This document shows positions 16,100-64,000 of a stretch of DNA of 64,000 nt, in pieces (within the stretch, counting starts at the first letter, position 1; every line of letters begins with the position of its first letter). This DNA comes from Phenylobacterium sp. Its GTDB lineage: Bacteria; Pseudomonadota; Alphaproteobacteria; Caulobacterales; Caulobacteraceae. The notes beneath the pieces were generated by a model. The model ran no database searches. It worked only from the letters and a program-made list of their open reading frames with translations, and was not told where the DNA came from. The stretch lies in NCBI RefSeq assembly GCF_030681155.1, contig NZ_JAUXXE010000039.1:1-64000 (forward strand), given 5' to 3'. Both the position numbers and the translations under genes were made by a program.

Positions 16100-19000
16100 C
16101 TAGAGGTCTTCGACGAACGAGACGCCGGGCGAGGTCTTCAATGCTCCGCGCACCGCGCCATCCAGTGTGAAGCGTCCAGGCAGCTTCATCTCCACCTCGC
16201 GCCCGCCTTCGATGGCGGCCACCAGAATGATCTCGCCCCCGCGTGGATTGGCGACGCCCAGCCGCTTCTTGATCGCCTCGATCTCGGTGCTGCGCGGGAC
16301 CAAGTGAACTCTTAGCGCGGCGACCGCATTCTCGATCGCCTTGTCGACCGGCTCGCAATCATCGCCAAAGAACCGCACCTCGCCGTCGCGAGCCTTGGCC
16401 CGCACCTTCAGGGAGACCGCCATTCCGGGCTCTAGCATGTCGCGGCACTTGCGCAGCGACTCCGGCGGGAACAGCACCTCGTACTCACCGGTCGGGTCCG
16501 ACAAGGTGACGAAGGCGAATTTCTCCCCGCTCGACTGCGAGGCGCGTTCCTGCTTGCGACGCACGACCCCGGCCATCCGGAACGCCTCGGCGCCGGCCTC
16601 GGCCTTAGGGATCACTTCGGCCAGCAGGTCGGTCCGGCGACGACGCAGCGCCTCGACCATGTCGTCCAGCGGGTGCCCCGACAGATAGAAGCCAACCGCC
16701 GCCAGTTCCTCGTCGAGCCGCTGGACCGGGGTCCACGGATCGCTCTTCGGCATCTTCTTTTTCTGGGCTTCGACTTGGAAGTCGCCAGCCGCGAAAAAGT
16801 CTTGCTGGTCTGAGTTCCGTTGCGCGGCGACCGACTGGCCGTAGGCGACCAGGAAGTCAGCGGCCCCAAAGACTTGCGCGCGATTGGGATGGATGGAGTC
16901 GAACGCCCCTGCCCGCGCCAGCGTCTCGAACGCGCGCTTGTTGACCTGCTTGGGGTCCACCCGCTCGACAAAGTCGAAGATGTCCTTGAACGGGCCGCCT
17001 TCGTTGCGGACCGCCACCACGTGTTCCATCGCCTGGAGGCCGACATTGCGGATCCCGCCGAGCGCATAGAGAACCTCGCCGTTCTCGACCTCAAAGTCCG
17101 CGCCCGAGCGGTTCACGTCGGGACTGCGGACCTTCACCTTGAAGCGCTTGGCGTCCTGGTAGAACACCGCCAGCTTGTCGGTGTTGGAGATGTCGAGGCT
17201 CATCGAGGCCGCGAAGAACTCGACCGGCGCGTTCGCCTTCAGCCAGGCGGTTTGATACGACACATAGGCGTAGGCGGCCGCGTGGCTCTTGTTGAAGCCG
17301 TAGCCGGCGAACTTGTCGACGAGATCGAAGATCGACCCGGCCTGCTCGGCGGGCACGCCTTTCTCGGACGCACCGGACACGAAACGGGCCCGCTGGAGGT
17401 CCATCTCCTCCTTCTTCTTCTTGCCCATCGCCCGGCGCAGAAGGTCGGCTTCGCCGAGCGAATAGCCCGCCAGGATCTGGGCGATCTGCATCACCTGTTC
17501 CTGGTAGACGATGATCCCGTAGGTCTCCTTCAGCACCGGCTCAAGGGTCGGATGCAGATAGTCGATCTCACGACGACCAAACTTGCAGTCGATGAAGGCC
17601 GGGATGTTGTCCATCGGGCCTGGCCGATAGAGCGAAACGACCGCGGTGACGTCCTCGATGGACCCCGGGCGAAGCTGCCGCAGGGTGTCGCGCATCCCTT
17701 GCCCTTCAAGCTGGAACACCCCCACGGTGCCGCCGCTGGACATCACCTCGTAGGCCGGCGCGTCGTCGAGCGGCAGGGTCGCGAAGTCCACGATCTCACC
17801 GCGCTTCTTCAGGAACTTCAGCGCCCGGTCGATGACGGTCAGGGTCTTCAGACCCAGGAAGTCGAACTTCACCAGCCCGGCGCTCTCGACCCACTTCATG
17901 TTGAACTGGGTCGCCGGCAGCTCCGAGCGCGGATCGCGATAGAGCGGCGTCAGCTCGGTCAGCGGCCGGTCGCTGATCACCACGCCGGCGGCGTGGGTCG
18001 AGGCGTTCCGATAGAGGCCTTCCAACTGCAGGGCGACGTCCAGCAGCTGGGAAACCGCTTCGTCATCCTTCTTGGCCTGTTTCAGGCGCGGCTCGATCTC
18101 GATGGCCTTGGCCAAGGTCACCGGATTGGCCGGATTGGCCGGCACCATCTTGGCCAGCCGGTCGACCAGGCCTAGCGGCAACTGCAGCACCCGGCCGACG
18201 TCGCGCAGGACGGCGCGGGCCTGGAGCGTACCGAAGGTGATGATCTGGGCCACGCGGTCGCGGCCGTAGTGCTGCTGCACGTAGGAGATCACCTCTTCCC
18301 GCCGCTCCTGGCAGAAATCGATGTCGAAGTCGGGCATGGACACCCGCTCGGGGTTCAGGAACCGCTCGAACAGCAGGCCGTAGCGCAATGGATCAAGGTC
18401 GGTGATGGTCAGCGAATAGGCGACCAGCGAACCAGCCCCGGAGCCCCGCCCCGGCCCGACCGGAATGTCGTGATCCTTCGCCCACTTGATGAAGTCCGAC
18501 ACGATCAGGAAGTAACCGGGGAACCCCATATTGGAGATGACCCCGATCTCCCGCTCCAGCCGCGCCTCGTATTCCTCCGGCGGGAAGGCGCTGGCCTGGC
18601 CGCGCGCGATGCGAGCCTTCAACCCCTCGCGCGCCTGATAAGCCAATTCGTCGGCCTCGGAGCGACCGCCTGCCGTGTCGAAGCGCGGCAGGATGGGGTC
18701 GCGCTTCTTGACCATGAAGGCGCAGCGGCGGGCGATATCGAGCGTGTTGTCGCAGGCTTCCGGCAGATCGGCGAACAAGGCCCGCATGTCGGCGGCCGGC
18801 TTGAACCAATGTTCCGGCGTCACCCGCCGACGCTCGTCCTGCATGATGAAAGCGCCGTCGGCGATGCACAGCAGCGCCTCGTGAGCGGCGTACATCTCCT
18901 GCTTGGCGAAATAGATGTCGTTGGTCGCGACCAGCGGAACATCGTGGTCGTAGGCGAAGGCGACGAGTTCGCCCTCGGCCGCCGCCTGCGACGGCAGGCC

Positions 19001-19543
19001 ATGGCGCTGTAGCTCGACATAGAACCGGTCGCCGAACACGCGCGCCATTTCAGCTAGCGCCGCCTTGCCTTCCGGGATCTTGCCAGCGGCCAGCAGCGGA
19101 TCGACCGGTCCATCGACCCCGCCCGAAAGCAGGATCAAACCTTCGTTGTGTTCGACCACCTTTTGCCAGGGGACCGAAACGTCCTCGCTGCCATCGGCCT
19201 CAAGGTAGCAATAGGAGGAAAGGACGCTGAGATTGAGATAGCCCTGCTCGCTTTGGGCCAGCAGAACAATGGTCGGAACCTTGGCCCAGCGTTCGGTTTG
19301 GCCGCCGCCGATCCCAGTGACCGGGAGCGCGCAGCCGACGATCGGCTGAACCCCCGCGTCCTTGCTGTAGACAGAAAATTCAAGCGCGCCGAACAGATTG
19401 GCCCGGTCCACCAGGGCCACGGCCGGCATTCCCGCCGCCGCCGCCAGACTGCTGACCTTGTCGGCCTTGATCGCACCTTCCAGCAGCGAATAGGCGGAGC
19501 GGACCCGCAGGTGGACGAAGCCGTCGTTCACCGCATCGCTCAC
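16100..19543 (-). CDS. dnaE: DNA polymerase III alpha subunit
   Basis: The replicative C-family polymerase, about 1147 residues. It has an N-terminal PHP domain ([16 protein letters not shown], degenerate for metal ligands), a polymerase palm with the catalytic aspartates in MPDFDIDF (about 400) and [10 protein letters not shown] (about 555), an HhH and OB-fold region, and a short C-terminal tail. The frame opens at a TTG (19549), but the GTG at 19543 is better placed 7 nt after GGGGG. It is only 16 nt downstream of the SOS microprotein sidA, so part of its transcription probably comes from the LexA-controlled promoter. Confidence 0.96.
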
Positions 19544-19559
19544 CGCCAAACCCCCGCTG

Positions 19560-19649
19560 CTAAGCCGCCAACTGAGCGACCATACACATCATCCACACAA
19601 AGCCGGCGACCGACATAAAGGCCAGCGATTCCCGAGCTAGACGAACCAT
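19560..19649 (-). CDS. sidA: SOS-induced cell-division inhibitor SidA (29-residue membrane microprotein)
   Basis: An ORF of 29 codons plus TAG. The peptide begins [17 protein letters not shown], continues as a hydrophobic stretch VWMMCMVAQ, and ends LAA: a short positively charged N-terminus and one membrane helix. In Caulobacter crescentus SidA is a 29-residue inner-membrane peptide induced by the SOS response that blocks division through the FtsW/FtsN divisome. Length, topology and SOS control all match. An AAGAGAG ribosome-binding site (19664-19658) lies 8 nt before the ATG. Upstream are a good promoter and a LexA box. The identification rests on remembered family features, not an alignment. 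Confidence 0.85.
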
Positions 19650-19670
19650 GATCAGCACTCTCTTGTGGAA

Positions 19671-19685
19671 GTTCTTGGTTCGTTC
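19671..19685 (-). promoter_or_regulatory. LexA operator (alphaproteobacterial SOS box)
   Basis: GTTC-TTGGTTC-GTTC on the plus strand is an exact match to GTTC-N7-GTTC, the direct-repeat LexA site of Alphaproteobacteria. It overlaps the last base of the sidA -10 and extends past the expected start point, where a repressor would block RNA polymerase. Confidence 0.85.
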
Positions 19686-19713
19686 TTATTCTTGTTTTGT
19701 TCTCATCCGTCAA
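19685..19713 (-). promoter_or_regulatory. sidA(-dnaE) promoter
   Basis: On the minus strand, -35 TTGACG (19713-19708) and -10 AATAAG (19690-19685) are spaced by exactly 17 nt. The predicted start near 19678 lies inside the LexA box and about 29 nt before the sidA ATG. Confidence 0.75.
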
Positions 19714-19777
19714 GCGGTCTTGTGGATAATTATGAGGATGGATTTGTACGCTGGGAGGTTCGTTGAAGGGGCCTGTG

Positions 19778-19842
19778 GCGCGACGACGCCTCCCCCTCTC
19801 CGAACCTCTCCCTGGGAAGAGGTCAGCTGAGGGGCGTCGCGC
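19778..19842. repeat. palindromic extragenic element downstream of lolD
   Basis: An imperfect inverted repeat: outer arms GCGCGACG / CGTCGCGC (8 bp) enclose a CT-rich tract and an inner ACCTCT / AGAGGT stem (19804-19823). The CCTCTCCCTGGGAAGAGGT core resembles extragenic palindromes scattered in Caulobacteraceae genomes. It may end lolD transcription. It occurs once in this window. Confidence 0.5.
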
Positions 19843-19875
19843 AGCGACGAACGCGGCGTATCAGATGGTCCACAC

Positions 19876-20562
19876 CTAGAGCGTCTGCGGCTCTAGATGC
19901 CCGTCCTTCAGCGCCACGACCCGGTCCATGTGCCGGGCAAGCTCCAGATTGTGGGTCGCGACCAGCGCGGCCACACCCTGGCTGCGGGCAAGCTCGTAGA
20001 GGCTTTCAAACACCGCGCCCGACGTGTTCGGATCAAGGTTGCCGGTCGGCTCGTCCGCCAGCAGCAAACGCGGCGAGTTGGCCAGGGCTCGCGCGATCGC
20101 AACGCGTTGCTGCTCGCCGCCCGACATCTGGGCCGGCTGGTGGTTGACGCGTTCAGCCAGGCCAAGGCTCGACAGCAGCTCGTCGGCCCGCGCCCGGGCC
20201 GCCTTGCGCGAGCGTCCGGCGATCATCTGCGGCAGGGCGACATTGTCGAGGGCCGTGAACTCGGCCAGCAGATGGTGGGCCTGATAGACGAAGCCGATGG
20301 TGGCCAGCCGCACCCGTGTGCGCTGGCGGTCGCTGAGATCGGAGCAGTCCCGCCCCTCGATGATGATCTGGCCGGCGTCAGGATGCTCAAGCAGACCCGC
20401 GGCGTGAAGCAGCGAGGACTTGCCCGAACCAGAAGGGCCGATCAGCCCGACGATCTCGCCGGGCTTAACGTCCAGATCAACGCCGTTCAGGACAGTCAGG
20501 GTCTTGTCGCCGCTCTTATAGGTGCGGCTGAGACCACGGATCGAAAGGACAGGATCACTCAT
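19876..20562 (-). CDS. lolD: lipoprotein-releasing ABC transporter ATP-binding subunit LolD
   Basis: ATPase of the LolCDE-type complex that extracts lipoproteins from the inner membrane for delivery by LolA. The 228 residues show Walker [14 protein letters not shown] (about 42-54), the LolD-type [15 protein letters not shown] segment, ABC signature [15 protein letters not shown], and Walker [13 protein letters not shown]. Its start overlaps the lolC stop by 8 nt. Confidence 0.95.
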
Positions 20563-41892: not shown

Positions 41893-42331
41893 TCAAGACG
41901 CCCTGGTAGCAGCCTCTCCTGGCCGCAGGAACAGTCTCGCGATCTCGGGATGCTCCAGTTGCAGCTTCTCGCTCAAATCCTGGGCCGCGCGCTCGATCTC
42001 GCCACCGGGCAGATCGTCGTCGAAATCGATGGTCACCCCGGCGAGGATTTCCTGCGGCTCTCACGCCAGGCCACAGCGAACCAGGCGCTCTCGAAACCGA
42101 TGGCCACGCCCGGCATCAGGAAATTGATCCACGGCTTGGTCAACGGCTCGGGGTTAATGATCTTGAGAAAGCCCTCGGAGATCGAGAACGCGCCGCCCAA
42201 GGCCAAGATCATCAGGGCTCAGTCAGCATGGCCGAACTGCCAGTGAACATGAAGGCGGCGAACTTGCTGGCTGCGATGGCGAGATTCCCCGCGGCGGCCG
42301 CGTAGATCGCGAAGCGTGAGTCCCCGGCCAT
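41893..42331 (-). pseudogene. decayed cation-diffusion-facilitator (CDF) transporter
   Basis: Three pieces in CDF order on the minus strand. (1) From the ATG at 42331, MAGDSRFAIYAAAAGNLAIA then KFAAFMFTGSSAMLTE, the N-terminal helix; this runs into TGATGA. (2) In another frame, LGGAFSISEGFLKIINPEP then WINFLMPGVAIGFESAWFAV, the mid-protein helices. (3) In a third frame, VTIDFDDDLPGGEIERAAQD then LEHPEIARLFLRPGE, the C-terminal cytoplasmic domain. An intact gene would be about 300 codons; about 145 remain, with at least one deletion and two frame changes. The identification is by remembered family pattern. Confidence 0.75.
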
Positions 42332-63497: not shown

Positions 63498-64000
63498 ATG
63501 ACCCAGTCCATCGCAAAGACGGACCCGACGCGCGGACAAGCGTTCAACGACCTCGACGTCGCCAGGGCCTATGCGAATCGCGCGCCCTACCCTCCGGAGC
63601 TCTTCCGCCGCCTTGGCGAACTCGCCCCGAACCGCAACCGTGCGCTGGATCTCGGCTGTGGTCCGGGCAAACTGGCCCGGCCGCTGGCAGACATGTTCGC
63701 AAAGGTCGAGGCCGTTGATCCAGCCACCCCGATGATCGCCGTCGGGCGCGAGTTGGACGCCGGCGCCCATGCAAATATCGGATGGTGTCGACGGCCGAAG
63801 CCGCGCCGCTTTCCGGGCCATATGATCTGGTCGTGGCGGGCGTCAGCATCCACTGGATGGACCACGAGGTCCTGTTCCCCCGGCTTTGCACGGAGATGGC
63901 CGAAGGCGGCGTTATGGTCATCGTCGGCGGCGACGAGGCCAGCGATCCGCCCTGGGCGCGCGAGTGGCCCGAGCTGATGCGTCGATGGATAAGCCGTATG
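63498..64000 (+). pseudogene. class I SAM-dependent methyltransferase, frameshifted and cut by the window edge
   Basis: Starts MTQSIAKTDPTRGQAFNDLD, with the SAM-binding motif I ALDLGCGPGKLARPL near residue 50. At about 63776-63783 homology jumps to another frame: MVSTAEAAPLSGPYDLVVAG, then SIHWMDHEVLFPRLCTEMAE, then GGVMVIVGGDEAS, which is the normal continuation (motif IV DLVVAGVSIHWMD). One lost base near 63779 explains the shift. Beyond the shift the original frame is GC-rich non-coding translation. It is either a recent pseudogene or a sequencing error. The 3' end lies outside the window. Confidence 0.75.

Follow-up and report, generated by a model that had tools for sequence, protein, structure and literature searches.

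The minus strand of the window (the whole stretch of DNA that was analysed, 64,000 nucleotides) carries a 29-codon gene, sidA, followed directly by dnaE. The sidA gene is preceded by a promoter that is overlapped by two LexA-like boxes, one exact and one imperfect. The features are as follows:

16100–19549, minus strand: dnaE, DNA polymerase III alpha (NF004226.0, 1459.6 bits, cut-off 1002)
19560–19649, minus strand: sidA, 29 codons plus stop (full-length match to NF033228.1; kept in relatives)
19658–19662, minus strand: GAGAG, a weak ribosome-binding site 8 nt 5′ of the ATG (read from the sequence)
19671–19685, minus strand: downstream LexA box GAACGAACCAAGAAC, an exact GAAC-N7-GAAC (GTTC-N7-GTTC on the plus strand), covering the expected start point
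19685–19690, minus strand: -10 element AATAAG (read from the sequence and from a box-centred alignment of relatives' promoters), sharing three bases with the end of the upstream box and a single base with the downstream box
19688–19702, minus strand: candidate upstream LexA-like box GAACAAAACAAGAAT, which departs from GAAC-N7-GAAC at one position and is spaced 17 bp from its downstream neighbour
19708–19713, minus strand: -35 element TTGACG (read from the sequence)

The sidA reading frame starts with an ATG at 19649–19647 and ends with a TAG at 19562–19560, matching base for base the 29-codon frame of the preliminary description, which had also placed the ribosome-binding site where GAGAG (19662–19658) is found. 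If translation began instead at an in-frame GTG at 19658, the product would have 32 residues. In two relatives (L002 and L007) the codons preceding the ATG differ from those of the window and include no start. The aligned first methionine is replaced by another codon in 11 of 169 loci, and in all eight of these that were read an ATG lies directly before the aligned position. The peptide has the size and hydrophobicity of a SidA protein: it is 29 residues long and contains a single hydrophobic stretch (best 19-residue Kyte–Doolittle mean of 1.88, starting at residue 9), and its insertion as a helix is predicted.

The curated NCBIfam equivalog NF033228.1 ("cell division inhibitor SidA") matches the peptide over its full length, positions 1 to 29 of 29, and the score of 63.6 bits, where the cut-off is 35, places the peptide within the family. 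The gene had been called too short to be annotated; this is wrong, as NCBI holds a 29-position model with its own score cut-off for exactly this family. A search of Pfam-A with the peptide gave no match at E 1. The alignment with Caulobacter SidA that had been proposed was made with four Caulobacter-type sequences rather than with that of NA1000, and the window peptide is 72–83% identical to them (L034, L043, L108 and L143). The highest value, 83%, belongs to L143, a locus labelled C. vibrioides T5M6, a label that is possibly wrong; identity to L043 is 72%, and the FtsW numbering of the L043 genome agrees with that of PMC4211646. By its sequence, the gene is an unexceptional orthologue belonging to a curated family that was already known. 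Its host is probably a Phenylobacterium-type bacterium, a genus suggested by the closest dnaE loci that carry a name.

Several small division inhibitors can be compared with this peptide. SidA of C. crescentus has been described as a 29-residue inner-membrane inhibitor of FtsW (PMC4211646). The window peptide shares with it the length, the full-length match to the family model, the hydrophobic helix and the LexA-box promoter, while differing from Caulobacter-type sequences to the extent given above and being known here from sequence. DidA of C. crescentus is also a small transmembrane division inhibitor that acts on the FtsW/FtsI/FtsN group. However, DriD induces DidA without the SOS response, and DidA binds FtsN (PMC4211646), whereas the window gene matches SidA and has a LexA box, which argues against DidA. 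YneA of Bacillus subtilis and SosA of Staphylococcus aureus are likewise SOS-induced division inhibitors, and YneA interacts with FtsW, as stated at title level (PMC13396833, PMC6851548), but the SOS box of those species is CGAACN4GTTCG (PMC9578287).

When whole genomes were searched with NF033228.1 at E 0.01, a match was obtained in 326 of the family's 390 genomes (above the cut-off in 209) and in one of 14 control genomes, that of Caulobacter vibrioides. The remaining 64 family genomes, some incomplete and some from divergent genera, gave no match at E 0.01. In genus g16, which we take to be Brevundimonas, the model finds a match at E 1 in 58 of 61 genomes, but just one of the 61 exceeds the cut-off; the E 1 threshold is loose, since seven of the 14 control genomes also match, so that weak rows need context. 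Such context is found in the 30 g16 loci that were fetched (L061–L090): sidA is present in all, with a LexA box upstream (exact in 25, with one mismatch in five) and with dnaE next downstream (28 by motif, two read). In genus g14, presumably Asticcacaulis, an alignment-based SidA model matches 24 of 25 genomes at E 1. Of the 20 g14 loci given, 19 are long enough to read, and each of these has dnaE downstream and a pair of boxes spaced 18 bp upstream. This known checkpoint peptide is thus widespread in the family, and the NF033228.1 cut-off misses most of at least one genus. Outside the family, an order-wide draw of 299 genomes gave weak partial matches in three (E 0.002–0.01), which were judged to be chance. 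Five genomes (G025, G071, G158, G295 and G296) have two or three SidA matches, reflecting contamination, assembly duplication or real duplication.

Conservation was analysed over 170 loci, 90 fetched by SidA (L001–L090) and 80 by dnaE (L091–L170), with L001–L060 and L091–L170 overlapping in species. A sidA match is present in 169, the exception (L136) being a record that begins 65 bases before the dnaE match. Six residues are nearly invariant among 102 unique peptides: F17 and V18 (101 each), W19, S13 and A25 (100 each), and R6, within the same range of 99 to 101. Codon differences cluster at third positions, and 54% of them (53,095 of 98,114) are synonymous versus 25% when single changes are made at random; the count covers non-independent pairs among 109 of the 140 unique coding sequences, those with at least 60% peptide identity to the window. 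Judged from these codons, sidA is under purifying selection. The preliminary description would have been contradicted by a peptide that is unconserved at this locus; the relatives show the opposite.

The stop codon of sidA lies 10–16 nt before the start of dnaE (GTG at 19543 or TTG at 19549), a gene that had gone unnoticed. Each of the 169 loci where sidA was matched has dnaE directly downstream (166 by motif, three read); this adjacency is circular for the loci fetched by dnaE, and the 90 found by SidA are free of the circularity. The short gap leaves no room for a promoter, and dnaE possibly belongs to the same transcript as sidA. The essential dnaE may be read from a LexA-controlled transcript, or it may depend on a promoter located within or above sidA. 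This gene order raises the question of how cells express a polymerase that they cannot do without when its gene follows a repressed one; PMC12700426 makes no mention of dnaE in its main text. Upstream of sidA, on the same strand, are genes for a LolD-like ATPase (its best model scores 264.3 bits, short of the cut-off of 307.75) and for a LolC/E-type permease (473.2 bits, above its cut-off).

The promoter is present as it had been described, with TTGACG and AATAAG separated by a 17-nt spacer, and so is the exact GTTC-N7-GTTC box at the -10 element and start point, which has one base in common with the -10. A consensus scan of 19480–20000 reported no sigma-70 promoter, because its rule requires the final T that AATAAG lacks. 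GTTCN7GTTC has been described as the LexA motif of C. crescentus (PMC12700426 and PMC9578287). The genome of the window encodes lexA, with the same exact motif just upstream of it, and further exact boxes precede ssb, recN, a YifB-family ATPase gene and a repair-type radical-SAM gene, so the motif is very likely the LexA operator in this organism. The recA gene appears in this genome as a fragment at a contig end, plus three weak matches elsewhere. Among relatives, a LexA box stands no further than 150 nt from the sidA start in 168 of 169 loci, 126 of them exact and 42 with one mismatch, a class that also occurs in about 10% of shuffled promoters, so that a single weak match means little. The only locus without a scored box, L152, has merely 24 nt of upstream sequence. 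Two other exact matches in the window, at 42234–42248 and 63618–63632, lie inside frames of uncertain status and are probably due to chance.

The bare motif is hardly enriched, with three exact matches in the window versus 1.81 expected and 133 in the genome versus 114 for a reversed control pattern. This would suit a chance reading frame lying beneath a chance box, and the case for the gene therefore rests on the peptide and its conservation. The equivalog match, the conserved peptide and the recurrence of the box in relatives leave such a coincidence a practically negligible probability. A second alternative takes the frame as a leader peptide whose translation regulates dnaE, rather than as a division inhibitor. 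The 10–16 nt gap and the constant position of dnaE, including the 90 loci fetched by SidA itself, would agree with this proposal. However, amino acids are kept while codons vary, the matching equivalog is named after a characterised inhibitor, and the peptide has a hydrophobic helix. In addition, no Rfam family reaches its gathering score over 19400–20000, and the single terminator-like hairpin within the frame is close to chance (one versus a shuffle mean of 0.3). A leader peptide is therefore very improbable. The identification as SidA, upheld by the equivalog model, by conservation in the family and by the recurring LexA boxes, makes it almost certain that this is a sidA orthologue, whose product would act, as in C. 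crescentus, as an SOS-controlled, FtsW-directed division inhibitor.

Where the preliminary description saw a single-box operator, there are probably two boxes. A second GAAC element, 16–18 bp away, was seen when the promoters of relatives were aligned on their best box, and in the window it corresponds to the LexA-like box at 19688–19702. When each box is allowed no more than one mismatch, a pair spaced 16–18 bp is found in 138 of 145 unique promoters, versus 0.02% of shuffles (100 per promoter, keeping base composition alone). The 145 promoters are those left after removal of L071 and L152, which have short upstream sequences, and of 22 duplicates in the last 90 nt; the pair was not found in seven of them (L019, L090, L148, L149, L150, L158 and L167). 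The pair at sidA is the only one in the 64-kb window on either strand. It is also absent from 20 other exact boxes of the same genome, hand-chosen for spacers with at least four A/T in seven positions from 100 listed of the 133. Five of these 20, the lexA box among them, precede recognised SOS-type genes; ten reading frames neighbouring the comparison boxes were run against NCBIfam, where five were unmatched and one was PurN, which is not an SOS gene. In 137 of the 138 paired promoters a TTG or TTGAC starts 7–12 nt ahead of the upstream box. The g14 promoters L254, L256, L257, L258 and L259 and the g24 group L031–L043 have a third LexA-like box in series; in L254 and L256 it lies 19 bp beyond the 18-bp pair.

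The upstream element GAACAAAA...GAAT could instead be a promoter element of other use, with the operator consisting of the single exact box, an alternative that concerns the tandem reading only. Its right half is GAAT rather than GAAC in 99 of the 138 pairs and overlaps the -10 in the window, and about 97% of C. crescentus SOS promoters have one LexA box each (PMC12700426). Against this, the left half is GAAC in both boxes of all 138 pairs, although the one-mismatch filter favours GAAC, and eight promoters have both boxes exact at the 16–18 bp spacing. A GAAT right half is also what overlap with the -10 would be expected to favour. The single-box operator is thus possible but rather unlikely. 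With a probability of roughly 0.6, sidA would be locked, in contrast to the 20 comparison sites of the same genome, by a tandem LexA operator whose boxes, 16–18 bp apart, cover spacer, -10 and start point; this arrangement would be kept in at least four genera of the family and could serve as a fail-safe against leakage. Such an operator was not found in the literature searched on the Caulobacter SOS response and sidA; Modell et al. 2011 or da Rocha et al. 2008 may show it.

The candidate tandem operator and the sidA–dnaE arrangement are, at the level of sequence, what this locus adds to the known family. In the tandem reading the right half of the upstream box incorporates the -10 hexamer, so that promoter and operator may constrain each other. 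According to PMC12700426, sidA is an early SOS gene with a promoter that exceeds that of uvrA in strength, and a strain without lexA filaments through constitutive sidA expression, which makes the cost of sidA leakage visible. Two boxes would more tightly lock a gene that, if it leaked, would stop division. If real, the tandem operator offers a concrete, testable reason why an early promoter stronger than that of uvrA can stay silent. Given the 10–16 nt gap, the same lock may also shape dnaE expression.

The proposed sequence of events takes LexA binding, induction, membrane insertion, FtsW contact and the division block from C. crescentus. While the DNA is intact, LexA would sit on the sidA promoter and keep the gene off, probably occupying two adjacent boxes that span most of the core promoter. 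Upon DNA damage, RecA would trigger LexA self-cleavage and the promoter would open. The 29-residue peptide would then insert as a single helix into the inner membrane, where it would hold FtsW/FtsI/FtsN inactive, so that the septum would stay unbuilt until repair ends.

The putative target was analysed at the positions where mutations of C. crescentus FtsW suppress SidA, namely A31K, F145L and A246T (PMC4211646). A31, F145 and A246 are conserved in all seven FtsW sequences aligned, that of the window's own genome included, and in genome G331 they fall at exactly the published numbers. This conservation fits the SidA mechanism without proving it, and it may reflect the function of FtsW itself. 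Two g16 sequences score just under the FtsW cut-off (334.9 and 330.9 versus 337.5), and the two g16 genomes with divergent SidA also keep the same three residues.
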